Source: Muriicola jejuensis
Lineage (GTDB): Bacteria; Bacteroidota; Bacteroidia; Flavobacteriales; Flavobacteriaceae
DNA: 64,000 nucleotides
Direction: 5' to 3'
Assembly: GCF_010671595.1 (NCBI RefSeq)
Contig: NZ_JAABOP010000001.1
Location: 310,001-374,000 of the forward strand
Shown: one piece after another, positions 11,380 to 37,339 of the stretch
Numbering within the stretch: position 1 is the first letter of the stretch
How the letters are laid out: every line of letters begins with the position of its first letter
Notes under the pieces: generated by a model
Told to the model about the DNA's origin: nothing
Databases searched by the model: none
What the model saw: the letters and a program-made list of their open reading frames with translations, nothing else
Made by a program: the position numbers and the translations under genes

Positions 11380-11382
11380 GGG

Positions 11383-19400: not shown

Positions 19401-22400
19401 GTACCCACCAGGCCAGAGCCGGAGATGTTCTGGTCGTCTGTTCCCACGAGGGAAGAAAGATCTACCACTTCCGAAGCACCGTTCTCGATGCCAATGGTCA
19501 GGTTGGTACCTACCAGGCCGGAACCGGAGATGTTCTGATCGTCTGTGTTATCCAGATACGGGCTCAGGTCCACATTGTTCCCATCCTCTATGGAGAGGGT
19601 ATTGGCAGCCAGGGTCAGGTTCTGGTCATCTGTGCTTCCTGCGGCTACTTCATCGATCGCAGCCTGTACATCGGCAGCGGTAAGGCCAGAAGCTGTATTG
19701 TCATAGGTCACCTCAGCAGCAGTCTGATCGTCCGTACCTACTAAAGAGGAAAGGTCTACAATTTCTGAGGCACCATTCTCTATCCCGATAGTCAGGTTGG
19801 TACCCACAAGGCCAGAGCCGGATATATTCTGGTCGTCCGTACTTCCTGCAGCCACCTCATCGATCGCAGCCTGAACGTCGGCGGCGGTAAGGCCTGAGGC
19901 TGTGTTATCATAGGTTACCTCGGCAGCGGTCTGATCGTCCGTGCCTACCAGGGAAGAAAGGTCTACCGTAGTGGAGGTTCCATTCTCAATATCGATCTGC
20001 AGGATGTTGGCTCCGCTTAAAGTGGCTCCCGTCAGGTTTTGATCGTCTGTATTATCGAGATACGGACTCAGGTCTACGCTGTTCCCATCCTCTATGGAGA
20101 GAGTATTCGCAGCCAGGGTGAGGTTCTGGTCGTCTGTTCCCACCAAGGAAGACAGGTCTACAATTTCTGAGGCACCATTCTCTATTCCTATAGTCAGATT
20201 TGTCCCTACGAGGCTGGACCCGGAAATATTCTGATCATCGGTACCCACCAGAGAGGACAGGTCCACAATCTCAGAAGCCCCGTTTTCGATACCGATAGTA
20301 AGGTTAGTCCCTACCAGGCTAGAGCCGGAAATGTTCTGATCGTCCGTGTTGTCCAGATACGGGCTCAGGTCCACACTGTTCCCATCTTCTATGGAGAGGG
20401 TGTTAGCAGCCAAAGTCAGGTTCTGGTCATCTGTGCTTCCAGCGGAAACTTCATCGATCGCGGCCTGTACGTCTGTAGCGGTCAGTCCGGAAGCGGTGTT
20501 GTCATACGGATTGCTGGAAGCGATGGTGCTTATGGTTACGGGAGATCCATCATTATTGTCGAATGTATAGGTTCCATCCCCATTATCAGTAACATCAGCT
20601 TTATTAATGGTCTGTGGAATTCCATTTTCGTTGGTATAGGTAAAGGTACCGTCCCCATTATCGGCTATATTCGTGATCGTTTCACCAACAGCCACAGAAG
20701 CTACATTCAGGTATAATCCACCATCCGAGCCTACAATAATGTCATTATTGGCATCGGCGCTGATTAGATCGATAGTAACCGAAGTTCCTGTTTCATCGGT
20801 ATACGTAAAAGTCGCATCCCCATTATTGACCAGGGTGGATATACTCGCATCACTGATCGTCGTAATATTTCCTGCAGCGTCGGTGAAGGTGTAGGTACCA
20901 TCCCCATTGTCTACAAGTGCCACCGTTCCGGCCAGGGCGTTGATCTCATCGATAGCAGCCTGGACATCGGTAGCAGTCAAGCCAGAAACCGTGTTGTCAT
21001 AGGGATTTGAACTGGCTCTGGTATCAATAGTTTGGGTAGCTCCCGTTTCATCCGTATAGGTATAGGTGCCATCGGCATTGTCCACTAACGTAGAGATGCT
21101 AGTATCGGTGATCGTAGTGGTATTACCTGCGGCATCCGTAAAATCGTAGGTGCCGTCCCCGTTGTCTACCAGGGAAACCGTTCCTGCTAGGGCGTTGATC
21201 TCATCGATGGCCGACTGAACATCGGTAGCGGTCAAGCCTGATGCGGTATTATCATAAGGGTTGCTCGAAGCCCGGGTATCAATGACCTGGGTGGCTCCCG
21301 TTTCATCCGTATAGGTATAGGTGCCATCGGCGTTGTCCACCAAAGTGGAGATGCTAGTATCGGTGATCGTAGTGGTATTTCCGGCAGCATCAGTAAAATC
21401 GTACGTACCATCTCCATTGTCTACCAGAGAAACAGTCCCGGCCAGGGCGTTGATCTCATCGATCGCAGCCTGAACGTCGGTGGCTGTTAAGCCCGAAGCG
21501 GTATTGTCGTAGGGGTTACTCGAAGCCCGGGTATCAATGACCTGGGTGGCTCCTGTCTCATCCGTATAGGTATAAGTACCGTCGGCATTGTCTACCAATG
21601 TAGAGATCGAGGTATCCGTAATGGTGGTCGTATTTCCGGCGGCATCCGTAAAGTCGTAGGTGCCGTCTCCGTTGTCCACCAAAGAAACCGTTCCTGCCAA
21701 AGCATTGATCTCATCGATGGCCGACTGAACGTCGGTAGCGGTCAAGCCTGATGCGGTATTATCATAAGGGTTGCTCGAAGCCCGGGTATCGATAACCTGG
21801 GTGGCCCCGGTCTCATCCGTATAGGTATAAGTACCGTCGGCATTGTCCACCAAAGTGGAGATGCTGGTATCGGTGATAGTAGTAGTGTTACCTGCGGCAT
21901 CTGTAAAGTCGTAGGTGCCGTCCCCGTTGTCTACCAGGGAAACCGTTCCTGCCAGGGCGTTGATCTCATCGATCGCAGCCTGAACGTCCGTGGCCGTTAA
22001 GCCCGAAGCGGTATTGTCGTAGGGGTTGCTCGAAGCCCGGGTATCAATGACCTGGGTGGCTCCTGTCTCATCCGTATAGGTATAGGTGCCATCGGCATTG
22101 TCTACCAAAGTGGAGATACTGGTATCGGTGATCGTAGTGGTATTTCCGGCGGCATCCGTAAAATCATAAGTGCCGTCTCCGTTGTCTACAAGGGATACGG
22201 TTCCTGCCAAAGCATTGATCTCATCGATGGCCGACTGAACGTCCGTGGCCGTTAAACCCGAAGCGGTATTGTCGTAAGGATTTGAAATCGCCCTTGTGTC
22301 AATGGTGACCGGACTTCCATCATTGTTGTTAAAGACGTAGGTTCCATCAAAATTGTCAATAATATCTGACTTGCTGATGATCTGAGCAGTACCGTCTTCA

Positions 22401-25294
22401 TTGGTATAGGTAAACGTACCATCGGCATTGTCAACCAGCGTGGTCAGTGTTTCCGCAAAGATGGTAGTCGCACCGGTTTCATCCGTATAGGTAAAACTTC
22501 CGTCCCCGTTGTCCACCAACGTGGAGATCGAGGTATCCGTAATGGTGGTCGTATTTCCGGCCGCATCGGTGAAGTCGTAGGTGCCGTCCCCGTTGTCTAC
22601 CAGGGAAACAGTCCCGGCTAAAGCATTGATCTCATCGATGGCCGACTGAACATCGGTAGCGGTCAAGCCTGATGCGGTATTATCATAAGGGTTGCTCGAA
22701 GCCCGGGTATCAATGACCTGGGTGACCCCTGTCTCATCCGTATAGGTATAGGTGCCATCGGCATTGTCCACCAAAGTGGAGATGCTGGTATCGGTGATCG
22801 TAGTAGTGTTACCTGCGGCATCCGTAAAATCGTAGGTGCCGTCCCCGTTGTCTACCAGGGAAACCGTTCCTGCCAGGGCGTTGATCTCATCGATGGCCGA
22901 CTGAACGTCGGTAGCGGTCAAGCCTGATGCGGTATTATCATAAGGGTTGCTCGAAGCCCGGGTATCGATAACCTGGCTGGCTCCGGTCTCATCCGTATAG
23001 GTATAGGTGCCATCGGCATTGTCCACCAGGGTGGAGATGCTGGTATCGCTAATAGTAGTAGTGTTACCTGCGGCATCCGTAAAATCGTAGGTGCCGTCTC
23101 CGTTGTCTACCAGAGAAACAGTCCCGGCCAGGGCGTTGATCTCATCGATGGCCGACTGAACGTCCGTGGCCGTTAAGCCCGAAGCGGTATTATCATAAGG
23201 GTTGCTCGAAGCCCGGGTATCGATAACCTGGGTGACCCCGGTCTCATCCGTATAGGTATAGGTGCCATCGGCATTGTCTACCAATGTAGAGATCGAGGTA
23301 TCCGTAATGGTGGTCGTATTTCCGGCGGCATCGGTAAAGTCGTAGGTGCCGTCTCCGTTATCTACCAGGGAAACCGTTCCTGCCAAAGCATTGATCTCAT
23401 CGATCGCAGCCTGAACATCAGTAGCGGTCAGTCCGGAAGCCGTGTTGTCATATGGGTTGCTCGCAGCCCGGGTATCGATAACCTGGGTGACCCCTGTCTC
23501 ATCCGTATAAGTATAGGTGCCATCGGCATTGTCCACCAAAGTGGAGATGCTGGTATCGGTGATCGTAGTAGTGTTACCTGCGGCATCCGTAAAATCGTAG
23601 GTACCGTCCCCGTTGTCTACCAGGGAAACTGTTCCTGCCAGGGCGTTGATCTCATCGATCGCAGCCTGGACGTCGGTGGCTGTTAAGCCCGAAGCGGTAT
23701 TGTCGTATGGGTTACTCGAAGCCCGGGTATCAATGACCTGGGTGGCTCCTGTCTCATCCGTATAAGTATAGGTGCCATCGGCATTGTCTACCAATGTAGA
23801 GATCGAGGTATCCGTAATAGTTGTCGTATTTCCGGTGGCATCGGTAAAGTCGTAGGTGCCGTCCCCGTTGTCTACCAGGGAAACCGTTCCGGCCAGGGCG
23901 TTGATCTCATCGATCGCAGCCTGAACATCGGTAGCGGTCAGTCCGGAAGCCGTGTTGTCATATGGGTTACTTGAGGCACGGGTATCGATAACCTGGGTGG
24001 CTCCGGTCTCATCCGTATAGGTATAGGTGCCATCGGCATTGTCCACCAAAGTGGAGATGCTGGTATCGGTGATCGTAGTGGTATTACCTGCGGCATCCGT
24101 AAAATCGTAGGTACCGTCCCCGTTGTCTACCAGGGAAACCGTTCCTGCCAGGGCGTTGATCTCATCGATCGCGGCCTGTACATCGGTAGCGGTCAAGCCT
24201 GATGCGGTATTATCATAAGGGTTACTCGAAGCCCGGGTATCAATGACCTGGGTGGCTCCGGTCTCATCCGTGTACGTATAGGTGCCATCGGCATTGTCTA
24301 CCAATGTAGAGATCGAGGTATCCGTAATAGTTGTCGTATTTCCGGCCGCATCGGTAAAGTCGTAGGTGCCGTCCCCGTTGTCTACCAGGGAAACCGTTCC
24401 TGCCAAAGCATTGATCTCATCGATGGCCGACTGAACGTTGGTAGCGGTTAAGCCTGATGCGGTATTGTCGTATGGGTTACTTGAGGCCCGGGTATCGATG
24501 ACCTGGGTGGCTCCTGTCTCATCCGTATAGGTATAGGTGCCATCGGCATTGTCCACCAGGGTGGAGATCGAGGTATCCGTAATGGTGGTCGTATTTCCGG
24601 CGGCATCCGTAAAGTCGTAGGTGCCGTCCCCGTTGTCTACCAGGGAAACCGTTCCTGCCAGGGCGTTGATCTCATCGATGGCCGACTGAACGTTGGTAGC
24701 GGTCAGTCCAGAAGCCGTGTTGTCATAGGTAACTTCCGCTGCAGTTTGGTCGTCGGTACCGACCAGTCCGGAAAGATCCACAGTCCGCGTATTGCCATTT
24801 TCAAGAGTAAGGGTCAGAATATTACTTGCGTCAATGCTAAAAGCTGTAATGATTTGGTCGTCTGTATTATCTAAGAAAGGCGTAAGATCAACAGACCCCC
24901 CATCTTCCAGGGTCAGGATGCTTCCTGCCAGGCTGAGGGCTTGGTCATCGGTACCTGCATTGCTGAGAGTGCTCAGGTCTACGTTTACCGTGTTCCCACC
25001 TTCAATATCCAGGGAAAGGATATTGGTGGCCGGGTTAAAACTGAAATTCTGCAGGACCTGGTCGTCCGAGGAGGTGAGCTCCCAGGTATTCCCGTCCCAG
25101 AAGTAGATCACCCCGGTATTGGTATTCACGTAAATATCTCCCGTATCGGCACCGGTTGGTGTCGTGGTACCCGGGGAGTTCACTGCGGTACCGCTGAGTA
25201 CCTCGCAGTTACACTGATCCTGCAGATTCACAGTGGTCTGTGAAAACGCAAATCCCGAGACCAGAAACAGAAGAAATAGGATCTTCTTATCCAT
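13421..25294 (-). CDS. Giant acidic repeat surface protein (~3957 aa)
   Basis: The ATG at 25294 gives a standard signal peptide ([19 protein letters not shown]); an upstream ATG at 25330 adds twelve residues and is less likely. After a ~170-aa unique head with the only visible cysteines (CNCE), residues ~190-1470 are about fifteen copies of an 85-aa unit ([20 protein letters not shown], then [20 protein letters not shown]). Residues ~1620-3815 hold about sixty 29-36-aa modules, each opening with TDDQ, interrupted by a ~165-aa spacer. The tail is a unique ~140-aa domain ending INVVFVVK. Lys, Arg and Cys are extremely scarce and Asp very common. No gliding C-terminal domain is present. A surface adhesin or stalk exported with the help of its operon partners is the best guess. 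Confidence 0.9.
13850..20440 (-). repeat. About sixty TDDQ-initiated short modules of five types in the giant gene
   Basis: Five module types each follow TDDQ. A is [20 protein letters not shown] plus [11 protein letters not shown] (35 aa). B is [20 protein letters not shown] plus PYLDN (29 aa). C is [20 protein letters not shown] plus [12 protein letters not shown] (36 aa). D is [20 protein letters not shown] plus [10 protein letters not shown] (34 aa). E is [20 protein letters not shown] plus [15 protein letters not shown] (two copies). Eleven modules precede and forty-nine follow a spacer at about 18,835-19,330. Edges and counts are from manual reading. Confidence 0.88.
20880..24735 (-). 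repeat. Array of about fifteen 255-bp (85-aa) repeats in the giant gene
   Basis: Each unit encodes [20 protein letters not shown], then [20 protein letters not shown], then a second [20 protein letters not shown] half and a R(A/S)SNP junction. I counted about fifteen copies. Protein variation is tiny (N/D, S/A, A/V, T/S), while the DNA differs at many third positions. One copy near 22,300-22,520 carries an inserted extra segment ([20 protein letters not shown]). Boundaries are approximate. Confidence 0.9.
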
Positions 25295-25374: not shown

Positions 25375-25404
25375 CAAATTTAACCTGAACCTACCCCTGT
25401 GAAA
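25375..25404 (-). promoter_or_regulatory. Promoter-like site of the giant-protein operon
   Basis: The minus strand shows TTT (25404-25402), a 19-nt spacer and TAAATTTG (25382-25375), an exact -7 match with one mismatch in the -33 triplet. The predicted start of transcription is near 25368. The 144-bp conserved block begins 6 bp upstream. Confidence 0.55.
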
Positions 25405-25409
25405 ATAAT

Positions 25410-25553
25410 TGTTGTGTACTCGATGAAATGCATGGTCTAGAACCCGATACTTGAGGTTTTGCACGAAAAAAACCTTATAATCCTTAAGGTTTCGTTGGTC
25501 GATCATCCCAATAATCATGGGCTTTATCGAAGGGTGATTTCGTAGGAATTTTC
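25410..25553 (-). promoter_or_regulatory. Conserved 144-bp upstream block, copy A
   Basis: Read on the minus strand, it contains GAAAATTC, TACG, GGGATGATCGA, AACG, CTAGACC, TGC and CACAACA in order. The same strings at the same offsets occur at 29510-29653 with no gap in a 144-bp alignment; I count about 87 identical positions. It sits immediately upstream of the promoter-like site of the giant gene, so a shared activator-binding region is the simplest reading. Confidence 0.65.
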
Positions 25554-25561
25554 AACAAAAA

Positions 25562-25574
25562 ACAGAAAATCTGT
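25562..25574 (-). terminator. Weak hairpin after the 1243-aa protein gene
   Basis: ACAGA-AAA-TCTGT forms a 5-bp stem. On the minus strand it is followed directly by TTTTT and G, so it could end the transcript of the 1243-aa gene. The stem is short, and the site lies 140 bp after the stop codon. Confidence 0.3.
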
Positions 25575-25715
25575 CTAATTGGTGGACCAGAAATGAAGGT
25601 CGAATTGTAAGGCGATTTTGGGTCCGTTTTCCCTGCTCCCGGGTGCCGGTTTTCAGGACTGAAAATATCCTGATCCGCTTACTTGAACTTTCGTACCAAA
25701 AAGCGGAAATTGGAT

Positions 25716-28700
25716 CTAATTCGGGTTGACCCTGTAGGTGATCCGCCTGTTAGTGATCACGGTTCTTACCACGATCTCTGAGAAAGGAGAAAATTCTGAG
25801 GTAGTATTGGCTAATGTCGCAGTACCTGTTAGCAGGTTCCCTACACTTAAACCTGGAGGCGCCGGAATGCGCACTTCAAAGCGATTGGTATTATCTGTAT
25901 TCCCGTCCGTATCCAAATAGGAAGAGGAACCGGCATCAGAATCTGCCCCGCTACCTTCCACGGCACTTCCCAGGTAGATCTGTCCTTCTCCGTAGTCTTT
26001 TGAGTACCCTAGCTGGTTATCCCCTGCTGTGGCAGTTCCTTCATTGATATCGGTAAGGAAAAATTCGAGGGTAGCTCCGGGGCGTGACCATCCTTTGATC
26101 ACCACATTGGAGCCCTCCATGTAGGCTGCGCTGATCAGCGGGAAATTCGCAGCTCCATTCGGGCCTGTATCGCTGTCCCCATTGTCATTGAGGGTCACTC
26201 CATCCCCCATCCCGTCGGCCTGGTCGAGGTCGATCCCCAAAGCATCCGCACTGGTGCCGTTGGCGTAAATAGAGTTTTGAGAGATCAGGTTGCCGGAAGT
26301 GTTTCCGCCACCTAAAACGATCCCTGCACCCCCATTCTGATAGATGATATTTTGGGTAATGGAAGAATTGTTGCCCTCGAGCCTAATGCCCGCATTTTCG
26401 TTCTGCCCACTGCAATTGCCCCCGTTCTGTCCGGCTGTGGTAATGGTATTTTCAGTAATGGTCACCCCTCCGGCGATCCCACTTCCTTCTATGCCCATGG
26501 CACCCGATAGTTCAATGAGGTTTTGCTGTATCACCACTCCGGAACCCCCTGTGATGTTTATATTATCGGCACATGGTCCATTCCCGTTTGAAGTGATATG
26601 ATTGTTTTGCACCAGAGTGGATGTTCCGCCTGCAATCCCTATGCCGGCCTCCTGATTGGTGGCGATATAATTACCGTCAATTATGGAAGCCCCATTATTC
26701 ATGGAAATCCCATAGTCAATATTACCCCCATTGGCTCCGGTGGCATCTACCCCTAATAACATATTAGATACGGTAACATCACCTCCATTGATAATGAGTG
26801 CGGTGTTATTGTTGGCATAGATCGCCATATTTCTTATTACAGCAGCCGTTCCCTGAGTGGTAAGGACATTGCCGGATCCCTTGTATAACTGGATCTCGGG
26901 TAGATCAAAGGAGGGCAAATTGGTGGCAGATATCCCAACAGGGCTACCTCCGGCACCCACTGTGCCTGTATTGGTATTGCCGGAATAGGCGGTTTGTGTC
27001 CTCCCATCTATATGTGTGTTGTCACCTGTGATGGATGTCAAAGTAACCGGATTTGGTATATCTATTTCAAAATAATTCCCATTGTAATTGCCATCCGCGG
27101 GCCTTCCCAGGGCATCTCCCGCTGGCGGGATCATAAATACGGAGGTATCATCCCCCGCACCAGGATCAAAAAGGGCATTGGCCTCTATATCCAGCCCGGT
27201 TTCACCCAGGGCATTGGAATTCACAATAAATTGTTCCAGGGAGCCCTGTCCTTCTTCGTTGGTGTTGACGATGGTATTGAAATTAAATCCAAAATCCATC
27301 CCGGCGATCCCCTCATTGAGAATGGTGAAACTGGAAATGGACTGCGCATTATTCAATGTACCAGGACCAGGGTCCTCTCCAGAGGGGTCCTCCCCTCCTA
27401 CACTATTGGTATCTTCGACTACAATGCTAGCCAAATAGTCGGTCTTAAAGGTTTGTACAGGGATGCAGGTGGTACAGGTACTGCCCCCGGGGCGGGTTGA
27501 TCGAACGCTGTTATTCACTACCCGGACGGTATAAGCCCCATTGGCCATCCCGGCAAATACATAGCGGCCCGCGGCATTGGTCGTGGTTGTGGTCACCAGG
27601 CTTCCGCCTCCATTATAAAGTTCCACCGTGGCATTCGGAATAGGTACTCCTCCTGCCGTGGCCCTGTTGCGACCAGGACCACCTCCATAGTTGACATCCT
27701 CAAAGACAATCCCTGTGGTCAGGTTTGAAGGCACTTTCAGGGTCACCGTATTAAGGATCACGAAATCCTGGCCGGACCCCACATTCGTCGTCACAGAGGT
27801 CTCCCCTGGAGATATGAATGGGGAAATATTATAGGTATCCAGGTCTACCCCGTGGGAATTAGTATTGTTAACCACCGGAGCAGATGTATTGTCGTAATGT
27901 GTTGAGTTGAATGGGTTGATTGTGGGTAAGCCCGTGTTATCTCCGTCCCCCACCAGGTTAAAAGTACCTAACCCTGTGGTCACCGTTAAGCTTTCATTGT
28001 TGCTCAGGGTCTGGTCACCCTCCCAGGACTGCACCGTGGTCTTGGATCCGGTGGCGCCGATGGCAAAAAACCCGCTGAGGGTATAAGAAGAAGAAGAATT
28101 ACTTTCCCCGCTAAAACCCTCATACACGTTGATGGTGGAAGCAGGCAGGCTGTTATCTGTGTAAAATATCATCAGGGACCACCCTCCAAGAGTAGTAGCG
28201 GTGTTACAATAGGGGTTGGTATTGTCGATGGTAAGCCCTGAAAACGTCCAAAGATAGGTAGATGGGTTGGGAACGGCCGTCACAATGGCCGTAACATCGG
28301 CCCTTCCTCCGAAAAAGGACCGGTTGGTCAGGGTAGTTCCATACAAGAACTCTGCATTTACCGTAGTCCCGTCGAAGGTGACCTGCGTATCGGGAGTAGC
28401 TCCGGAATGCGCCCAGTACAGGATAGCCTGTTCAATGGTGGCCGTAGCTGGGATAGGGCTGCTAAGGGTATTGCTGGAACTGGTGGTGATCGCACAGGTA
28501 TTCCCCGTATTGGGTTCCGTCCTGAGCGTTCCCGCGGTGGAGGTATAATCCATATACCCGTCGAACTCATGGGTGAGGACCAGGGGAGCATTAAAGGCGT
28601 ATTCATCATCAATGATCGTTCCTATTCCTGTATTTGAAGCTACGATCACAGAGGGATCACTCACATTGCTCAGGACCACATTAAAGGTCTCATCGATAAA

Positions 28701-29447
28701 CTCCGGCACTGCATCGTCAATCAGCGGGACCACTATATTCTGAGTTTCCCCCGCTGTACCTGCAAAAACGAGGGTACCGCTAGTGGCTGTATAATCGCTT
28801 CCTGCCAGGGCTGTACCGTCGCTGGTTGCATAGTCTACAGTTAGACCGCCTGAGACTGCCTTGGTCAAAATCACTGTAAAGGTGGCCGTACCGTCGTCCT
28901 CATTGACGGTCACGTTGTCTATGGTGATATTTGGAGGAAAGTTTCCGCTGAAGATCACATTGTCCACAAAAATGATCTCCCCATTGCTCCATCCCCCGCT
29001 ATCTGTAACGAATCGGATCTCAGAGTTCGCTGAGATCTCATTCGCTGCCAGACTATAGTTCACAGTGCCTGTTCCATTCAATACAGCCACTTCATTCCAT
29101 CCAGTGCCGTTCCACAACTGCACGGCAATACGCTCATTCCCACTGGTTCGGTTATAGCTCATTGTGAGGGTGACCCCGGTTCCTCCGGTCATATCCAGGG
29201 TACGGCTGATCTCAGCACCATCCATGTTCTCAAAACGAAGCTGGTTGGAATTGATCTGTATCCTTCCATTATTGAAGTCCCCATCCTCGTTATCAACCCA
29301 ATCCGCCGAAAAGCTGAGGGTTCCATTATTATTGGAGTAGGATGCGGTATTGAAATTGTCCCAAAAGGTATCCTGCCCGAACAGCAGGGAACCCTGGAAA
29401 CATACTATTCCCAGAATCAAAAACTTCAGACTCTGTCTAAATCTCAT
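25716..29447 (-). CDS. Large secreted protein with Calx-beta, CNA-B/SdrD-like and right-handed beta-helix regions
   Basis: The 1243-aa protein has a signal peptide (ending SLLFGQD). Residues ~25-170 are a beta-sandwich. Residues ~172-282 form a Calx-beta domain (NVTVNEDDGTATFTVILTKA, then DETFNVVLSNVSDP and GTIIDDE). A long region follows containing TIEQAILYWAHSG and GGWSLMIFYTD. A CNA-B/SdrD-like domain is near residues 620-690 (TTGIVFEDVNYGG, NAAGRYVFAGMANGAYTVRV). Residues ~880-1090 look like parallel beta-helix rungs (GNYIATNQEAGIGIAGGTST, NNSSITQNIIYQNGGAGIVL). I see neither of the two usual type IX C-terminal domains; the chain ends ITNRRITYRVNPN. It is a stand-alone gene between the two secretion modules. 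Confidence 0.87.
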   Translation of the reverse strand: MRFRQSLKFLILGIVCFQGSLLFGQDTFWDNFNTASYSNNNGTLSFSADWVDNEDGDFNNGRIQINSNQLRFENMDGAEISRTLDMTGGTGVTLTMSYNRTSGNERIAVQLWNGTGWNEVAVLNGTGTVNYSLAANEISANSEIRFVTDSGGWSNGEIIFVDNVIFSGNFPPNITIDNVTVNEDDGTATFTVILTKAVSGGLTVDYATSDGTALAGSDYTATSGTLVFAGTAGETQNIVVPLIDDAVPEFIDETFNVVLSNVSDPSVIVASNTGIGTIIDDEYAFNAPLVLTHEFDGYMDYTSTAGTLRTEPNTGNTCAITTSSSNTLSSPIPATATIEQAILYWAHSGATPDTQVTFDGTTVNAEFLYGTTLTNRSFFGGRADVTAIVTAVPNPSTYLWTFSGLTIDNTNPYCNTATTLGGWSLMIFYTDNSLPASTINVYEGFSGESNSSSSYTLSGFFAIGATGSKTTVQSWEGDQTLSNNESLTVTTGLGTFNLVGDGDNTGLPTINPFNSTHYDNTSAPVVNNTNSHGVDLDTYNISPFISPGETSVTTNVGSGQDFVILNTVTLKVPSNLTTGIVFEDVNYGGGPGRNRATAGGVPIPNATVELYNGGGSLVTTTTTNAAGRYVFAGMANGAYTVRVVNNSVRSTRPGGSTCTTCIPVQTFKTDYLASIVVEDTNSVGGEDPSGEDPGPGTLNNAQSISSFTILNEGIAGMDFGFNFNTIVNTNEEGQGSLEQFIVNSNALGETGLDIEANALFDPGAGDDTSVFMIPPAGDALGRPADGNYNGNYFEIDIPNPVTLTSITGDNTHIDGRTQTAYSGNTNTGTVGAGGSPVGISATNLPSFDLPEIQLYKGSGNVLTTQGTAAVIRNMAIYANNNTALIINGGDVTVSNMLLGVDATGANGGNIDYGISMNNGASIIDGNYIATNQEAGIGIAGGTSTLVQNNHITSNGNGPCADNINITGGSGVVIQQNLIELSGAMGIEGSGIAGGVTITENTITTAGQNGGNCSGQNENAGIRLEGNNSSITQNIIYQNGGAGIVLGGGNTSGNLISQNSIYANGTSADALGIDLDQADGMGDGVTLNDNGDSDTGPNGAANFPLISAAYMEGSNVVIKGWSRPGATLEFFLTDINEGTATAGDNQLGYSKDYGEGQIYLGSAVEGSGADSDAGSSSYLDTDGNTDNTNRFEVRIPAPPGLSVGNLLTGTATLANTTSEFSPFSEIVVRTVITNRRITYRVNPN

Positions 29448-29473
29448 CTTTTGTGGTCAACGTTCTTTGACTC

Positions 29474-29505
29474 TAAAAGTAACCATAGGTTGCAGCCCGC
29501 CTAAA
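29474..29505 (-). promoter_or_regulatory. Promoter-like site of the 1243-aa protein gene
   Basis: The minus strand reads TACTTTTA at 29481-29474, one mismatch from TANNTTTG, with a T-rich -33 region around 29503-29505. The predicted leader is about 20 nt. It lies in the same place relative to the conserved block as the promoter of the giant gene. Confidence 0.4.
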
Positions 29506-29509
29506 AGAA

Positions 29510-29653
29510 TGTTGTGAACGGGGGTTATAGCAAGGTCTAGGCCCCGAATATTGAAGTCTCAATCCAGATTTGGATTAAAATTCAGGCGTGTCCGTTAATC
29601 GATCATCCCAGAAAACACGGGACTTGTAAAACCTGAAATACGTAAGAATTTTC
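29510..29653 (-). promoter_or_regulatory. Conserved 144-bp upstream block, copy B
   Basis: This is the partner of 25410-25553. GAAAATTC, TACG, GGGATGATCGA, AACG, CTAGACC, TGC and CACAACA all occur at identical offsets. It fills almost the whole gap between the OmpA-like gene stop (29661) and the promoter-like site of the 1243-aa gene. Confidence 0.65.
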
Positions 29654-29660
29654 GTATTAA

Positions 29661-31700
29661 TTAATAGCAGCAATTCTCCCCGTCCTCACAGAGGATCAGG
29701 AATTCGGACCTGCGGTTCTGCTGGTGTGCAGCAGCAGAACATCTCACCCCATCCGCACATTCGTTCACCAGTTTGGTCTCCCCGTAGCCGGCGTATTTCA
29801 ACCTGTCCCTGGAGATGCCCCTGGATATGATATATTCCACCGTGGCTTTGGCCCTGCGTTCGGACAGTGGCTGGTTATATGAATTGGGACCCCTGGAATC
29901 CGTATGTGAATTCACCTGTATCCTCAGACTGGGATAGAGGGTCATGGCATCCACAATGATATCGAGTTCGTCCTTATAGTCGTCCCGGATCTCAAATCTG
30001 TCGAAATCAAAAAAGATGGTGGGATCGAGGCCCAGCAATTTGGCGAGGTCCGTGCCGTAGTCCACACAATCGGTCTCCATATAGAAATCCACCATTCTCA
30101 GCTCACAGGGGTCTATCTCCAGGTATTCCTCCACCGTGGTATATCCTTCCCGCGTAGCCCTCACAAAATTGTTCCTGTTTCGGTCTATGGTCACCTCATA
30201 AGCCCCCTCCTCGTCGGTAAAGGTAGAGGCGATCACCTCGTTATTGTCATCGATGATATTGATGGTGGTTCCGGACAGGGGCAGCAGAGTGGTCCTGTCG
30301 CGGACAATACCGGTCAGCACTTTTGGATTGATACATTTGGCCGTAAAGGCATAGATATTATCAGAAGTATCCTCTACATTTTTCCTCCCCAGGGTCACCG
30401 TCCGTGGCCTGTTGGAAGCAAAAAATCCGTATTCCCCATCGCTGTCATAGATAAAGGAAAAATCGTCAAAGGACGTATTGACCGGTTCCCCGAGGTTTTC
30501 GGGAACTGAAGCCACCATGCCCTCTGCATTCAGGTCGACCGCATACACGTCCATCCTGCCCTTCCCGCCCAGGCGGTCTGAGGAAAAATAAAGTTTTCCC
30601 TCCTTGCTTACAAAGGGAAAGCTCTCCCTGAACTGGGTGTTCACCCGGTCACCCAGGTTGTCAATCCTTCCGGAGATCCCGGTCTCATTCATCTGGACCA
30701 CAAAAAGGTCTGACAAGCCTTTAGTGCCCGGCATGTCTGAGGTAAAATAGAGCCTGGTTCCGTCCGGACTCAGGGCGGGGTTTGCGAAGGAATACCCATC
30801 GGCATTGAAGGATTTATCTGCATTTGGATTTCGATACCAGGAATCATCGGTGATCATCCACCCCTCGTTTCCAAGAATTGCTTTAAAGATCTTCAGGCGT
30901 ACGATATTGTCGGAGTCCTTGACCAGTTCCCCATCGCTGAAATTGGAGGCTGTGAAATACATGGTCCTTCCATCCTGGGAAAATGTGGCGGTGGATTCAT
31001 CCACCTTGATCGCCGTGGTTTCCGCTTCCCGTGTATTGATCCCGTTCCCCCCAAAATTTATCTTGGTAATGACCATAAGGGAATCCGCGTCATAATCGAG
31101 CTGATAGAGGTCCAGGAAGTCCTTGTTGGTCCCGCTGTGACGGTAACGGTGGAAACTACCCGTATCCCGGTCTGAGGAGAACAGGAGCCCCTTTTTGTAA
31201 AAGATCGGCGCGAAGTCTGAGAAATAGGTGAGGTTCACACTGTCTCTGAGGTTCTTGAAATACTGTTTGAGGTCCTTTAATTCGTATACCCGGGTGGTCT
31301 GTACCACAGACGTCGCCCCGGATTCATCCAGGAAGGTGGCAAGTTTTTCCCTGGCCTCCTTTTCCCGTCCGATGGCCTTCAGACTCTGGCCATACCTGAA
31401 ATTGTATTCAACCGGAACCTCGAACTCCGGTTTTTCAGCCGCCCTTTGATACAGGACCTCATAGACCTTTGCGGCATTTTGGTAATCTGCTATAAAATAA
31501 TAGGAATCGGCCAGTTTCATCAATACTGTATCCTTCACCTTATCCGGCTTTTCCATCAGGCGTTTCTGGTACACCCTGGTGTACATGGTGTAGGTGTACT
31601 TTTCTTTTTTCTTTTCCGGCACACCCTGCGCAAAAATACTGCCTAGGGTCGCTGAGAAAAATATGCAGGTGATCAGTAAACGCTTTGTCATGGAGAGCAT
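29661..31700 (-). CDS. PD40 beta-propeller / OmpA-family outer-membrane protein with TPR and carboxypeptidase-regulatory-like regions
   Basis: The 679-aa protein begins with a signal peptide (ATG at 31700 or 31691). TPR-like helices follow (LADSYYFIADYQNAAKVYEV). PD40-type propeller blades are next (SFANPALSPDGTRLYFTSDM, SFPFVSKEGKLYFSSDRLGG). A carboxypeptidase-regulatory-like domain lies near residues 450-540 (LPLSGTTINIIDDNNEVIAS). The last ~115 residues are an OmpA peptidoglycan-binding domain (VNSHTDSRGPNSYNQPLSER). The same architecture occurs in PorE-like periplasmic proteins that link type IX components to peptidoglycan. It starts 2 bp after porP/sprF copy 2 and is third in that operon, so it probably anchors the surface system. 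Confidence 0.92.
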   Translation of the reverse strand: MLSMTKRLLITCIFFSATLGSIFAQGVPEKKKEKYTYTMYTRVYQKRLMEKPDKVKDTVLMKLADSYYFIADYQNAAKVYEVLYQRAAEKPEFEVPVEYNFRYGQSLKAIGREKEAREKLATFLDESGATSVVQTTRVYELKDLKQYFKNLRDSVNLTYFSDFAPIFYKKGLLFSSDRDTGSFHRYRHSGTNKDFLDLYQLDYDADSLMVITKINFGGNGINTREAETTAIKVDESTATFSQDGRTMYFTASNFSDGELVKDSDNIVRLKIFKAILGNEGWMITDDSWYRNPNADKSFNADGYSFANPALSPDGTRLYFTSDMPGTKGLSDLFVVQMNETGISGRIDNLGDRVNTQFRESFPFVSKEGKLYFSSDRLGGKGRMDVYAVDLNAEGMVASVPENLGEPVNTSFDDFSFIYDSDGEYGFFASNRPRTVTLGRKNVEDTSDNIYAFTAKCINPKVLTGIVRDRTTLLPLSGTTINIIDDNNEVIASTFTDEEGAYEVTIDRNRNNFVRATREGYTTVEEYLEIDPCELRMVDFYMETDCVDYGTDLAKLLGLDPTIFFDFDRFEIRDDYKDELDIIVDAMTLYPSLRIQVNSHTDSRGPNSYNQPLSERRAKATVEYIISRGISRDRLKYAGYGETKLVNECADGVRCSAAAHQQNRRSEFLILCEDGENCCY

Positions 31701-31702
31701 AA

Positions 31703-32665
31703 TTAAAAGAATCTAGGTGATACCAGGCCGCGGAAAGAGCGCACCAGTTCGAACCTCAGGAAGACCTCAAAGGAACCGTCATTGAAACGGGAACCGCTCA
31801 GTTCGGTGATCTCCCGGTCATAGGCAAGTCCCAGCATCAGCTGATCAGACAGCTGGAAGCCAAAAAGTGCACTGGCAGCCGCATCCCAGCGATAGGCCGC
31901 GCCAAAGGAAAACTTGTCGTTCAGCAGGAAAGTCCCGGAAAAATCGAGCTGCAATGGAGCCCCGCCTACCGCCTTCATCAGGAAGGCAGGTTTGAATTTG
32001 AAGTTGTAATTCAGATCGAAAACATATCCCGTGATCAGGTAAAAGTTCATTCGCTCGGTCGACTGGAACTGCACGGTATTTGCCGCCCGCTGCGAATTGT
32101 CAAAATAATCCGATTCCAGCAGGTTGGGTACGGAAAGCCCCAGGTAATACCTGTTGGTGTGATAATAAAGACCGAACCCGATGTTGGGGGAAAAGTTATT
32201 GGTGATATCCGCCCCGTCATTGATGGGTTCGTTGTCAAAATTCCGCAATTGCTGGAAATCCAGATTCAGGAGATTCCCCCCGGCCTTGAGGCCAAAGGAG
32301 AGTTTCCGGTCGTCCGCAAAATCGAGCGTATAGGAAACCACCGCATCGAAATAGGTCTCCTGTACCACCCCGTTCCCTATGTTGTCATTCACAATGGAGA
32401 GCCCGTATCCCAACTTGCTGTTCCTGATGGGGGAATGCAGGTTCAGGGTCTGGGTTTTGGGAGCACCGTCCAGGCCCACCCACTGCGCCCTGTACATGGC
32501 CGCGATGCTGAGCTGCCCCCTCGATCCGGCATAGGCGGGGTTCACACTCATGGTATTGTACATGTACTGGGTGTACTGTGCATCCTGTTGTGCCTGGAGA
32601 GAACCGCAAAGAGCCGTTACCCAAAATAAGAGTACAAAAGGATTTTTATAAAGTCTCATAGTCAT
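31703..32665 (-). CDS. PorP/SprF family type IX secretion outer-membrane protein (copy 2)
   Basis: The 320-aa protein has a signal peptide, then QDAQYTQYMYNTMSVNPAYA and SRGQLSIAAMYRAQWVGLDG, the PorP/SprF hallmark, and a beta-barrel ending SPRFF. It is strikingly similar to the copy at 10411-11379, especially over residues ~25-90 and at the C-terminus (YDREITEL, RFNDGSFE), which points to duplication. The ATG at 32659 (MRLYKN) may be the true start rather than 32665. It lies 9 bp after the 1554-aa cargo gene and 2 bp before the OmpA-like gene, forming a three-gene delivery and anchoring operon. Confidence 0.93.
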   Translation of the reverse strand: MTMRLYKNPFVLLFWVTALCGSLQAQQDAQYTQYMYNTMSVNPAYAGSRGQLSIAAMYRAQWVGLDGAPKTQTLNLHSPIRNSKLGYGLSIVNDNIGNGVVQETYFDAVVSYTLDFADDRKLSFGLKAGGNLLNLDFQQLRNFDNEPINDGADITNNFSPNIGFGLYYHTNRYYLGLSVPNLLESDYFDNSQRAANTVQFQSTERMNFYLITGYVFDLNYNFKFKPAFLMKAVGGAPLQLDFSGTFLLNDKFSFGAAYRWDAAASALFGFQLSDQLMLGLAYDREITELSGSRFNDGSFEVFLRFELVRSFRGLVSPRFF

Positions 32666-32674
32666 TTTCTTCTG

Positions 32675-35600
32675 TTATTTACTCAAATACAGGTAACCGG
32701 AATCCGTGATCCTCTGCTGATCCAGATCGTATTCAAAGATATAGAAATAAACCCCTGCCGGCAGGTAGTCATTCACACTCAGCGTGGAACGTCCTCTTGA
32801 TCTGCCGTCAAAAACGTTATTCTGGTTGTTGTAGTTGGCACCCTCGTAGACCGCAACTCCCCATCGGTTAAAGATGCGCAGCGTATTATTCCTTGCGTAT
32901 TCCACATCGCGGATAAACAGGAAGTCGTTCCTTCCATCCCCGTTGGGAGTTACCATCTGGTTTACCTCGATCTTGAAGTCCGTAATGATCTCAGAGACCA
33001 GGACGGTCACAGTGGCCGTATCGCAATTCTCAGGATCCGCGATCTCACAGATCGTATACTCAATGGTATAGATGCCGGGCGCTGTGCCGGGCTGGACGCT
33101 CACGGTCCCATCCGGATTGACGGTAAGCGGACCTGTAGGTGTAGACGTAATAACGACATCCGAAGGATTGACAGCTTCTCCGTTCAGGGTATCATTATCC
33201 AGGACATTGCTGTTTGCGACCAGGCCTCCGGCATCTCCATCGACGGTTACGCCAGTGAAATCATCATCCACAGCATCAATGATATTGGAGCCCATGCCCA
33301 CTTCCACAGTTACGGTGGCTGTATCACAATTCTCCGGATTGGCCACCTCACAGATCGTGTAGTCTATAGTATAGGTACCGGGATCTGTATTCGGAGCCAC
33401 ACTGACCGTACCGTCCGTATTCACGGTAAGCGGCCCTGTAGGTGTAGACGTAATGACGACATCCGAAGGATTAACGGGTTCCCCGTTCAGCGTATCGTTA
33501 TCCAGCACATTGCTGTTGGCGACTACCCCACCGGTAGTTCCATCCACAGGCTCGGCCGTAAAGTCGTCATCCACCGCATCGATCACATTCGGACCCGCAC
33601 CTACCTCCACCGTTACGGTTGCGGTATCGCAATTCTGAGGATTGGCCACCTCGCATATGGTGTAGTCTATGGTATATGTACCAGGGGCCGTATCAGGAGC
33701 GACACTGACCGTGCCGTCTGTGTTTACGGTAAGCGGACCTGTAGGTGTTGAGGTGATCACCACATCAGCGGGATTCACACTAACCCCGTCCAGGGTATCG
33801 TTGTCCAGTACATTGCTGTTGGGTACCACACCCCCGGTTGTTCCGTCTACGGGATTGGCACTGAAATCATCATCCACAGCGTCGATACCGGGAGCACCAT
33901 TCAGCACGGTGACCGTTGGATCATCAGGATTTCCATCCCCGTCACTATCGTTGTCTGTTGGGTCGTCAGGGTCATCAGAAAGGGTACTGATGGGTCCGTT
34001 ATCCGGAATAAAGGCCGTAACCGTGGCTGTATTCTGGAAACTACCGGCGTCAATGTCGGCCTGTGTAATCGTATAGGTAGCTGTAAAAGTAGTACTATCT
34101 GTCTCTCCCGGCTCAAGAATGGTCAAAGGACCTCCCACTAATTCTACCAGCGGATCGGTTATGGTAATATTACCCAACGGCACCGTACCTGTATTGATCA
34201 CGGTAAAGGTATAGCTGATGGTCTCTCCAGCCTGGGCATAGCCATCGTTGTTCTCATCATTAAAGGTATCCACTTTGAGTACAACAATATTCGGACCTCC
34301 CTCGACCACTACGGTCACCGAGCCTGTGTCGCAATTGGTAGGGTTGGCTACCTCGCAGATGGTGTATTCGATAGTATAGGTACCGGCACCTGTATTGGGT
34401 GCTACGGTTACTGTACCGTCAGGATTTACGGTAAGCGGACCTGTAGGGGTGCTGGTCAGCACCACATCGGCAGGATCGATCGGTTCACCATTCAAAGTAT
34501 CGTTGTCCAGGACATTGCTGTCCGGAACTACCCCTCCGGCAACCCCGTCTACGGGGTTGGCACTGAAGTCGTCATCCACTGCGTCGATCACATTGGCACC
34601 CGGATCCACCACTACGGTCACAGAACCCGTATCGCAATTAGTAGGGTTGGCCACCTCGCAGATAGTATATTCGATAGTGTATGTTCCGGCACCTGTATTG
34701 GGTGCTACGGTTACCGTACCATCAGGATTTACGGTAAGCGGACCTGTAGGGGTGCTGGTCAGCACCACATCGGCAGGATCGATCGGTTCTCCGTTCAGGG
34801 TGTCGTTATCCAGGACATTGCTGTCCGGAACTACGCCTCCGGCAACCCCGTCTACGGGGTTTGCACTGAAGTCGTCATCCACTGCGTCTATCACATTGGC
34901 ACCCGGATCCACCACTACGGTCACAGAACCCGTATCGCAATTGGTAGGGTTGGCTACCTCGCAGATAGTATATTCGATAGTGTACGTTCCGGCACCTGTA
35001 TTGGGTGCTACGGTTACTGTACCATCAGGATTCACGGTAAGCGGACCTGTAGGGGTGCTGGTCAGCACCACATCGGCAGGATCGATCGGTTCACCATTCA
35101 AAGTATCGTTATCCAGGACATTGCTGTCCGGAACTACGCCTCCGGCAACCCCGTCTACGGGATTCGCGCTGAAGTCGTCATCCACTGCGTCTATCACATT
35201 GGCACCCGGATCCACGACCACGGTCACAGAACCTGTATCGCAATTGGTAGGGTTGGCTACCTCACAGATAGTATATTCGATAGTGTATGTTCCGGCACCT
35301 GTATTGGGTGCTACGGTTACTGTACCATCAGGATTCACGGTAAGCGGACCTGTAGGGGTGCTGGTCAGCACCACATCGGCAGGATCGATCGGTTCACCAT
35401 TCAAAGTATCGTTGTCCAGAACGTTGCTGTCCGGAACTACGCCTCCGGTGACCCCGTCTACGGGATTCGCGCTGAAGTCGTCGTCCACTGCGTCTATCAC
35501 ATTGGCACCTACGGTAATGGTTACAGTAGCGGAAGCACAGACATCGGGTTCAGGGTCTGTATTACATACCTGATAAATGATGGTCACCGTCGAATTCGAT

Positions 35601-37339
35601 TCTGTGATATCAGGGGTGTATGTGAGCTCCCCGGTCTCCGGATCAAAAGATACAGTACCTGTGGCCGAACCACCTATCTGAGTAATTTGGGTCGTACCCA
35701 GGTTATTGGGATCGTTATTTGGTAGATAGTCATCATTGGCAAGGATATTTATGGTCACGGCCGTCTCAGCAGCGGTTTCACCTTCATCGTCTACAGCTGT
35801 TGCCACAAGGGGATTAGGATCTCCACCATTGGGGTTTCCGTCCCCATCACAGTCAATCGCATCCCATGCAGTTGAGGGATCGAGGGTCTGACTCGTCAAA
35901 AGGAGGGAACAGGGATCCTGAGGATCGGTCCCATCGTTATTTTCATCCCCGTTTGTCACCCCGTCTCCGTCACAATCCAAAGCCAGGTATTCATCACTCT
36001 GAGCTACCGTAATACTTTCGGGATTAAACGAGCAGGGATCCAGAGGATCGGTCTGGTCATCCACTTCGTCGGAGTTGGTCACGCCATCTCCATCGCAGTC
36101 CAGATTATCCCATTCCCCTGAAGGGGTTACGGTCTGGCTTGCAAGTACAAAGGAGCAGGGATCCAAAGGATCGGTGCCGTCGTTGTTCTCATCCTCATTG
36201 GTCACTCCGTCCCCGTCACAGTCGGCCAGCAGGTAGTCACCACTTTGAGCTACGGTAATACTTTCCGGGTTGAAAGAGCAGGGATCCAGAGGATTAGTTT
36301 GGTCATCCACCTCGTCTGAGTTGGTCACTCCATCCCCGTCGCAATCCAGGTTGTTCCATTCATAGGAGGGATCTACGGTCTGGCTGGCCAGGATAAAATC
36401 ACAGGGGTCGAACGGATCCGTCCCATCTCGGTCTTCATCGCCATTGGTTACCCCATCTCCGTCACAATCGGAGATCACATAATCTCCACATTGTTCTACA
36501 GTAATGCTTTCCGGGTTGAAGGAACAGGGATCCAGGGGATCGGTCTGGTCATCCACCTCGTCTGAGTTGGTCACTCCATCCCCGTCACAATCCAAGTTGT
36601 TCCACTCATAGGAGGGATCTACGGTCTGGCTGGCCAGGATAAAATCACAGGAATCGAACGGATCCGTCCCGTCTCGGTCTTCATCTCCATTGGTTACCCC
36701 ATCTCCGTCACAATCGGAGATCACATAATCTCCACATTGTTCTACAGTAATGCTTTCCGGGTTGAAGGAACAGGGATCCAGGGGATCGGTCTGGTCGTTT
36801 ACCTCGTCTTCATTGGTCACTCCGTCCCCGTCGCAATCCAGGTTATTCCATTCATAAGAAGGGTCCAGGGTCTGACTGCCCAAGACAAAGTCACAGGGAT
36901 CAAATGGGTCGGTCCCGTCAGTATGTTCTTCCCCATTGGTAACCCCATCCCCGTCACAGTCAGAAATCACGTAGTCTGCGCATTGTTCTACGGTAATGTG
37001 ATTGGGACCAAAGGAGCAGGGATCCAGGGGATCTGTATTATCGCATATCTCGTCGTAATTGGTCACACCATCGCCGTCACAATCTGCGAGATTCCAAGCC
37101 GCACTCGTGGGTAGGGTCTGGCTTGCAAGAACAAAATCACAGGGATCGTTTGAATCTGTTCCATCCCGTTGTTCGTCAGAATCCCTTACGCCATCTCCAT
37201 CTGTATCTTTATTCTCAATGAATTTACCTGCTACCATGGAGGTATTCGCATGGGTAATTGCCGACAGAAGTTGACAAAGGATGAAAGTGAGTATAGTGAG
37301 GAATAGTTTCCTCGTTTTCAACAGTGTAATGTTCTCCAT
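32675..37339 (-). CDS. Large type-B type IX cargo protein with TSP3 calcium repeats and tandem 101-aa domains
   Basis: The 1554-aa protein has a signal peptide (ending about AITHANTS). Residues ~45-510 are about a dozen thrombospondin type-3-like units (DCDGDGVTNGDEDRDGTDPF plus DPC). They alternate between two subtypes and should bind calcium. Four near-identical 101-aa domains follow (DAVDDDFSANPVDGVAGGVV, VLTSTPTGPLTVNPDGTVTV), then a DUF11/CARDB-like domain (AQAGETISYTFTVINTGTVP). Three more divergent copies of the 101-aa domain come next. The C-terminus is a gliding-motility C-terminal domain (VTPNGDGRNDFLFIRDVEYA, IFNRWGVAVYEG, YFYIFEYDL). It heads an operon with porP/sprF copy 2 and the OmpA-like gene. 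Confidence 0.93.
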   Translation of the reverse strand: MENITLLKTRKLFLTILTFILCQLLSAITHANTSMVAGKFIENKDTDGDGVRDSDEQRDGTDSNDPCDFVLASQTLPTSAAWNLADCDGDGVTNYDEICDNTDPLDPCSFGPNHITVEQCADYVISDCDGDGVTNGEEHTDGTDPFDPCDFVLGSQTLDPSYEWNNLDCDGDGVTNEDEVNDQTDPLDPCSFNPESITVEQCGDYVISDCDGDGVTNGDEDRDGTDPFDSCDFILASQTVDPSYEWNNLDCDGDGVTNSDEVDDQTDPLDPCSFNPESITVEQCGDYVISDCDGDGVTNGDEDRDGTDPFDPCDFILASQTVDPSYEWNNLDCDGDGVTNSDEVDDQTNPLDPCSFNPESITVAQSGDYLLADCDGDGVTNEDENNDGTDPLDPCSFVLASQTVTPSGEWDNLDCDGDGVTNSDEVDDQTDPLDPCSFNPESITVAQSDEYLALDCDGDGVTNGDENNDGTDPQDPCSLLLTSQTLDPSTAWDAIDCDGDGNPNGGDPNPLVATAVDDEGETAAETAVTINILANDDYLPNNDPNNLGTTQITQIGGSATGTVSFDPETGELTYTPDITESNSTVTIIYQVCNTDPEPDVCASATVTITVGANVIDAVDDDFSANPVDGVTGGVVPDSNVLDNDTLNGEPIDPADVVLTSTPTGPLTVNPDGTVTVAPNTGAGTYTIEYTICEVANPTNCDTGSVTVVVDPGANVIDAVDDDFSANPVDGVAGGVVPDSNVLDNDTLNGEPIDPADVVLTSTPTGPLTVNPDGTVTVAPNTGAGTYTIEYTICEVANPTNCDTGSVTVVVDPGANVIDAVDDDFSANPVDGVAGGVVPDSNVLDNDTLNGEPIDPADVVLTSTPTGPLTVNPDGTVTVAPNTGAGTYTIEYTICEVANPTNCDTGSVTVVVDPGANVIDAVDDDFSANPVDGVAGGVVPDSNVLDNDTLNGEPIDPADVVLTSTPTGPLTVNPDGTVTVAPNTGAGTYTIEYTICEVANPTNCDTGSVTVVVEGGPNIVVLKVDTFNDENNDGYAQAGETISYTFTVINTGTVPLGNITITDPLVELVGGPLTILEPGETDSTTFTATYTITQADIDAGSFQNTATVTAFIPDNGPISTLSDDPDDPTDNDSDGDGNPDDPTVTVLNGAPGIDAVDDDFSANPVDGTTGGVVPNSNVLDNDTLDGVSVNPADVVITSTPTGPLTVNTDGTVSVAPDTAPGTYTIDYTICEVANPQNCDTATVTVEVGAGPNVIDAVDDDFTAEPVDGTTGGVVANSNVLDNDTLNGEPVNPSDVVITSTPTGPLTVNTDGTVSVAPNTDPGTYTIDYTICEVANPENCDTATVTVEVGMGSNIIDAVDDDFTGVTVDGDAGGLVANSNVLDNDTLNGEAVNPSDVVITSTPTGPLTVNPDGTVSVQPGTAPGIYTIEYTICEIADPENCDTATVTVLVSEIITDFKIEVNQMVTPNGDGRNDFLFIRDVEYARNNTLRIFNRWGVAVYEGANYNNQNNVFDGRSRGRSTLSVNDYLPAGVYFYIFEYDLDQQRITDSGYLYLSK
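34297..35510 (-). repeat. Four near-identical 303-bp tandem repeats in the 1554-aa cargo gene
   Basis: Each encodes 101 aa starting near ANVIDAVDDDFSANPVDG and ending near TGSVTVVVDPG. The protein copies are virtually identical, and the DNA copies differ only at scattered third positions. On the opposite strand they also create a long open frame that is not a gene. Boundaries are approximate. Confidence 0.9.
35840..37200 (-). repeat. Thrombospondin type-3-like repeat block
   Basis: About a dozen units of ~36-40 codons carry the core CDGDGVTN(G/S/E)DE followed by TDP.DPCSF. Units with ESITVEQCGDYVISDCDGDG alternate with units with SQTVDPSYEWNNLDCDGDG. Every unit keeps Asp residues spaced for calcium binding and a paired Cys. 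Confidence 0.85.

Follow-up and report, generated by a model that had tools for sequence, protein, structure and literature searches.

Two 144-bp blocks in the window, the 64-kb stretch of DNA analysed here, are probably LytTR-controlled promoter regions that co-regulate two surface proteins, judging from their sequence. Block a (25410–25553) and block b (29510–29653) are both on the minus strand. Their sequence and spacing are conserved, and they are associated with the locus and the presence of one LytTR response regulator. The 144 positions aligned without gaps, and 87 of them were identical, in agreement with the count of about 87 in an earlier note on this DNA. The best other ungapped placement of either block on both strands of the window gave 63 identities, and the background over all ungapped placements had a mean of about 36 with a standard deviation of 5.3–5.4.

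Block architecture and downstream genes

From the alignment and from its copies in three same-genus genomes (G006, G002, and G004) and in other genera, block a was assigned as a regulatory region ahead of the predicted promoter of the giant gene. On the minus strand it contains a distal motif, ATCGACCAACG (25493–25503), which fits ATCG[AG] at 86–88 bp upstream of ACAACA in 18/18 copies. Closer to the gene are a half-site at −42, ACCTCA (25452–25457), a degenerate half-site at −21, ACCATG (25431–25436), and the promoter-proximal half-site CACAACA (25410–25416). Block b, likewise assigned from the alignment and its copies to the Calx-beta/beta-helix gene's predicted promoter, has the same elements on the minus strand: ATCGATTAACG (29593–29603), ACTTCA at −42 (29552–29557), the degenerate ACCTTG at −21 (29531–29536), and CACAACA (29510–29516). 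The distal motif of block b was placed by comparing copies, the −42 and −21 half-sites by a half-site matrix and copy comparison, and the proximal half-sites by pattern match and copy comparison. In both blocks the half-sites are exactly 21 bp apart (0, −21, and −42), about two helical turns. The motif clusters that the earlier note had named stood at equal internal offsets in the two blocks.

The predicted promoters were located by their −7 boxes. The Bacteroidetes sigma-A −7 box is TAnnTTTG (PMC9723704). The box behind block a, TAAATTTG (25375–25382, minus strand), fits this consensus. The box behind block b, TACTTTTA (29474–29481, minus strand), matches 7/8 positions, with the two free positions counted, and is off at the last base. 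The distance from block end to box, given as about 27 bp in the earlier note, was 27 bp in block a and 28 bp in block b. A scan for E. coli-type promoters was uninformative (8 found, 6.6 expected). The pattern ACAACA-N25..30-TAnnTTTR had 18 matches in this genome, compared with 10 for a reversed-pattern control. The spacer was 28 bp in 10 of the 18, including block b, and 27 bp in block a. Other matches to the TGGGATGATCGA pattern (loci L032, L036, L038, and L039) were found without the remainder of the block.

Block a precedes a secreted protein of 3957 aa (13421–25294, minus strand, ATG at 25294, stop included), the largest product of the window by a wide margin. Block b precedes a secreted protein of 1243 aa (25716–29447, minus strand) with Calx-beta, beta-helix, and SdrD_B matches. 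The two proteins had no meaningful similarity to each other (best BLASTP E 7.3), in agreement with the claim that the coding sequences are unrelated.

Conservation of the block in the genus and in other genera

Block a was found upstream of the orthologous giant gene in G006, G002, and G004. Between species it was 79–93% identical, whereas 58–78% of the aligned positions were identical in the 140 bp upstream. For the beginning of the giant gene, fourfold sites were compared in two pairs only. Between this genome (G000) and G002, block a was 90% identical and the fourfold sites 40% (54/134); between G006 and G004, the values were 81% and 41% (55/133). The other pairs were left out because in ungapped comparison their nucleotide identity was 60–64%, as if shifted by indels.

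Diverged copies were also present upstream of the Calx-beta orthologue in the same three genomes, and a ninth copy (copy c) lies at a contig end in G004. The copies b of the three genomes were 37–51% identical to copies a, whereas copy b of this genome was 50–57% identical. They keep mainly the core motifs and their spacing; only copy b of this genome matches over 144 bp without gaps. The order common to the nine copies is ATCGA, AC[CT]TC[AT], a weak site, CACAACA, and the −7 box. ATCGA lies 86–88 bp and AC[CT]TC[AT] exactly 42 bp upstream of ACAACA, and the spacer to the −7 box is 27 bp in copies a and c and 28 bp in copies b.

Four copies a and one copy b served to build a whole-block model, R1, which was searched against 149 genomes of the family. 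At E up to 1e-3, it matched in 17/149 genomes, this genome included. G019, G081, G111, and G092 had partial matches only. The features of R1 hits are partly ascertained because R1 was built from block copies, but the exact register was not forced. In 18 copies including those of other genera, AC[CT]TC[AT] stood at −42 in 18/18, AC stood at −21 in 17/18, and the −7 box lay 27 or 28 bp downstream in 18/18 (14 and 4, respectively). The 149-genome search used stricter filters, and 18 candidates were scored per genome, so absence of the block from a family genome is weak evidence.

In other genera 9 copies were inspected; each comes after a gene ending in [VI]ITNR[RK]IT[YH]R and before one that encodes the N-terminus of the giant protein. 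These 9 are the copies outside this genome among the loci given for 10 of the 17 matching genomes. The earlier note had proposed searching related genomes for the block and its spacing and had named missing conservation upstream of orthologues as counter-evidence. Both are conserved across genera upstream of giant-gene orthologues, and the counter-evidence did not appear. Within the genus, a nucleotide search with block b was too insensitive and returned block b itself and short chance-level hits. No exact match to the gapped pattern was found in viral contigs.

A LytTR regulator–kinase locus with the same array

In G001, a weak R1 hit (E 0.25) fell in the gap that separates the gene of a LytTR response regulator from that of a histidine kinase. 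ACAACA repeats 21 bp apart were present in the orthologous gaps L084 (this genome) and L041 (G006). In this genome the locus is on contig C19, outside the window. The candidate response regulator (about 112,242–113,006) has Response_reg and LytTR domains, and the adjoining histidine kinase (about 113,660–115,621) has TPR, HisKA_2, and HATPase matches. PMC5399024 was considered as a source on a relative of the regulator and was rejected, as it names the OmpR and BaeS families.

Relatives of the regulator in named genomes were analysed with the best 80 of 275 matches, which were 88–96% identical. For these 80 Flavobacteriaceae loci, the gap was defined as the stretch from the regulator to the next frame of at least 150 aa. 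In 3 of them (L157, L170, and L185), no next frame was found, and the 1000 bp used instead held no repeats. ACAACA-N15-ACAACA occurred in the gap of 72/80 loci. Of the ACAACA pairs, 95 were spaced at 21 bp; no other spacing up to 80 bp occurred more than 8 times. ACAACA was found 303 times on the coding strand and 30 times on the opposite strand. Downstream of ACAACA, TAnnTTTR occurred 103 times at 34 bp and 77 times at 55 bp, and the layout of the array is ACAACA-N15-ACAACA-N28-TAnnTTTR. The consensus of 104 gap promoters, in which ACAACA and the −7 box were imposed by the pattern and two genomes were counted twice (L110 with L090, L127 with L089), was tTTCACAACA.AAa....c.gtTTCACAACAATa, followed by TAatTTTG. 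This genome encodes 9 LytTR proteins. When each gene was searched with 1.5 kb of flank, ACMNCA-N15-ACAACA was found only at the locus of this regulator.

The ACAACA pairs were compared with the classical LytTR half-site consensus. It overlapped 0/95 of the gap pairs and had no match in block a; in block b its one match fell on the distal motif. According to PMC6193735, LytTR half-sites diverge from the consensus and are little conserved between systems. The classical consensus is therefore not strictly defining for LytTR promoters. Other features of LytTR promoters were present. A response regulator with a LytTR domain is linked to the sites, as the array lies downstream of its gene. LytTR promoters have 9-bp direct repeats separated by about 12 bp, which gives a period of about 21–22 bp, and repeats with this period are clear in the gaps (95 pairs at 21 bp). 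The blocks keep the register exactly, although their −21 half-site is degenerate. The repeats stand just upstream of the −35/−33 region, 27–28 bp from the −7 box, in 18/18 copies.

Independent tests of the half-sites in the blocks

A half-site matrix was trained only on the regulator–kinase gaps (90 distinct promoters) and run over the nine block copies, with copies a averaged. Over 125 offsets, the best mean scores were at 0, −42, and −21, in that order. The half-sites at −42 and −21 are weak, as their mean scores were negative; −42 ranked 2–8 and −21 ranked 2–21 of 141 offsets in single copies. A half-site at −84 had poor matrix support, so the matrix does not account for the distal motif. 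A profile built from 91 gap promoters was run at full sensitivity over 17 sequences. At E up to 5, its sole hits in the 64-kb window were the two blocks, with weak E-values of 0.11 and 0.2. The spacer in copies a is 27 bp, compared with the 28 bp usual in the array. The earlier note had suggested several protein-binding sites on one DNA face, and this suggestion gained support from the exact 21-bp spacing and the apparent match to a promoter array of a LytTR two-component system. The kinase-promoter consensus, over its reach, did not show the distal ATCGA..AACG motif, which lies about 130 bp upstream of the predicted start. This motif may serve a second regulator.

Co-occurrence of the array and the regulator

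The regulator was present in 26/149 family genomes and in 16/17 block-bearing genomes (Fisher p 7e-14, relatedness ignored). The exception, G092, has a weak partial block match and no regulator. A shared clade could account for part of this co-occurrence, and it may be that the regulator, the blocks, and the giant gene are no more than markers of one clade.

The strict array was counted with up to one mismatch in 60 genomes, and the regulator was called at E up to 1e-60. The 13 genomes with the regulator had 134 strict sites (5–19 each; control, 8), and the 47 genomes without it had 36 (0–4 each; control, 19). Four regulator genomes outside the genus had 16, 19, 11, and 12 sites. Some one-mismatch places recur in many genomes and look like coding sequence, so the strict-site counts, in which loci L190–L219 were taken in bulk, contain non-sites.

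Other candidate targets

Forty regions around strict-array places were fetched from eight genomes, and 39 of them held 42 strict sites. Of these sites, 8 preceded a gene for a sigma-70-like factor and 4 the kinase gene; 3 stood before a gene whose N-terminus marks it as the orthologue of a collagen-repeat protein, and 2 before an acetyltransferase-like gene. Eight were followed by a shared small-RNA-like motif, and 17 had no same-strand frame of 100 aa within 500 bp.

The array precedes the sigma-70-like factor gene in 9 loci from 9 genomes of several genera. One is L107 (1640–2221, plus strand), and the others are L225, L232, L240, L242, L250, L252, L258, and L261. This gene is a candidate core target of the putative regulon. 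In L223 (815–4318, plus strand), the array is 32 bp before the start of a gene for a 1168-aa secreted protein with long collagen-type repeats. Small RNAs are likely encoded behind the array in L084 (1880–1995, plus strand), L108 (1412–1500, minus strand), and L099 (1540–1700, plus strand). L084 and L108 have TTTTTTCATTTTCATATAGTGTTCTCGTAAAA in common, followed by a terminator-like hairpin. In L099, the array is followed by a terminator-like hairpin with no nearby same-strand frame. TTCATATAGTGTTCTCG was present in 60/80 regulator loci. Rfam searches of four further loci, including the small-RNA candidates, gave only matches below the family thresholds.

Proposed control and alternative explanations

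The half-sites at 0, −21, and −42 would lie directly upstream of the predicted promoter core, and the 21-bp register would let a LytTR-type response regulator bind one DNA face as a dimer or short array. If the −7 box spans about −12 to −5 (PMC9723704), ACAACA would occupy about −46 to −41; the half-sites further upstream would fall near −67 to −62 and −88 to −83, and all three would face the same side of the DNA. A bound regulator would contact RNA polymerase and would most likely be an activator. The likeliest regulator is the response regulator on contig C19 beside the TPR/HisKA_2 kinase, and the promoters of this kinase gene have the clearest copies of the array. Linked expression of the giant and Calx-beta genes is plausible.

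It is unlikely, though the most serious alternative, that the phased sites are bound by another regulator, either one of the eight other LytTR proteins or a non-LytTR protein that controls the kinase promoter too. Nine LytTR proteins are encoded in this genome, a site near a regulator gene need not be that regulator's own, and the half-site is off the classical consensus. However, the array was found within 1.5 kb at this LytTR locus only, and across 60 genomes the strict sites track the regulator orthologue. Common descent would be a less probable explanation still. The blocks would then be copies of one ancestral promoter, with their spacing due to descent, the promoter core, and upstream sites of another kind, and LytTR control would play no part. 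Copies a, b, and c do look homologous (37–57% identity between types), and conservation extends well beyond the half-sites and includes the distal motif. Descent nevertheless fails to account for the ACAACA-to-−7 geometry and the 21-bp register in otherwise unrelated promoters, or for the way in which a matrix trained independently of the blocks ranked the offsets.

The blocks make better sense as upstream promoter parts than as RNA elements. The structured upstream RNA that the earlier note had offered as its other reading, either a leader or a riboswitch, is very improbable. A 9–10-bp hairpin can be drawn in copies a, but the block is upstream of the predicted transcription start, the fold z-scores were −0.4 to −0.7, two-sided changes occurred at 3/38 consensus pairs with an unfavourable covariation term, and Rfam gave only chance-level matches below the family thresholds in the block region. 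The block thus had neither a stable conserved fold with covariation nor a match to a known family. There is practically no probability that the block is a small coding region or a mobile-element footprint. One reading frame runs open through block a in this genome and, shifted, in G004, yet it has stops in G006, G002, and copy b. At E up to 1, with 150 of 468 candidates scored, the block model yielded no more than two copies in this genome, and copies are at corresponding gene positions in other genera. The coding and mobile-element readings are already contradicted by these stops and by the conserved position.

Relation to known systems

The proposed LytTR-controlled promoters resemble the direct-repeat promoters of AgrA (agr P2/P3) and of HdrR/BrsR and further LytTR systems in Streptococcus mutans, with repeats just upstream of the core. 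LytTR activators, AgrA among them (PMC4227749), use direct repeats just upstream of −35, mostly with 12 bp between them (PMC6193735). The AgrA and S. mutans systems also have a spacing of about two turns and an autoregulated signalling locus (PMC6193735; PMC4227749). The system here differs from the classical ones in its half-site (ACAACA), in its TAnnTTTG-type −7 box, in its host family (Flavobacteriaceae), in its partner, a TPR/HisKA_2 kinase, and in the third phased half-site and conserved distal motif of the surface-protein promoters. In the same family, promoter control of a large adhesin with a PorP/SprF-type partner is described for remFG-sprCDBF of Flavobacterium psychrophilum (PMC9723704). 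The promoters there are reported as sigma-54-type (SM4) and SM5 and were reporter-tested, whereas here a sigma-A-like −7 box is predicted together with LytTR-like repeats. PorX/PorY control of type IX secretion likewise ties two-component signalling to secreted or surface proteins in Bacteroidetes; the regulator here differs in having a LytTR domain. No title or abstract found described a LytTR regulon in Bacteroidetes or Flavobacteriaceae, which is not proof of absence, since LytTR is mentioned in the text of, for example, PMC5395568, PMC10057207, and PMC10197871.

A family-wide LytTR system might command, through one phased array shared by their promoters, a surface-lifestyle regulon of giant and collagen-like proteins, the sigma-70-like factor, the kinase, and several small RNAs, with giant promoters adding a second regulator at ATCGA..AACG. 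We would give this broader proposal an even chance. To our knowledge, little is known about how giant surface proteins are switched on in marine flavobacteria, and one signal may govern surface proteins as a set. With a cis element recognizable by its pattern and a conserved candidate regulator, the regulon can be tested directly. The sigma-like factor, the collagen-like protein, and the small RNAs are predicted as unlinked targets.

Surface-protein neighbourhood

PorP/SprF-family, OmpA-family, and type B sorting-domain proteins flank both genes (10411–13398 and 29661–37339, minus strand), and this flank resembles type IX secretion cassettes. A common tail, [VI]I[ST]NR..T[YH]R[VI], was found on otherwise different surface proteins that precede blocks, here at 25719–25760 (minus strand) in the window and also in loci L062, L063, L073, L077, L222, and L265–L273. 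The tail is possibly a short sorting or anchoring signal. In G006 and G002 (L062 and L063), there is an extra surface-protein gene before the Calx-beta gene and a gene of 598–601 aa after it; both are missing here, at 25553–29660 of the window. Copy b of this genome is nearer to copies a than the orthologous copies b are, as if its promoter had been replaced.

In G006 and G002, the gap that separates the OmpA-family gene from the following surface-protein gene in the same cluster contains a one-mismatch array site. With this site, three promoters of that cluster would share one control. G004 has a second cluster (L222, contig C15) that encodes an OmpA-family protein, a Calx-beta-like protein of 1256 aa, and proteins of 593 and 1036 aa. 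ACAACA sites were found in at least 3 of its gaps, and one of them belongs to copy c at the contig end.
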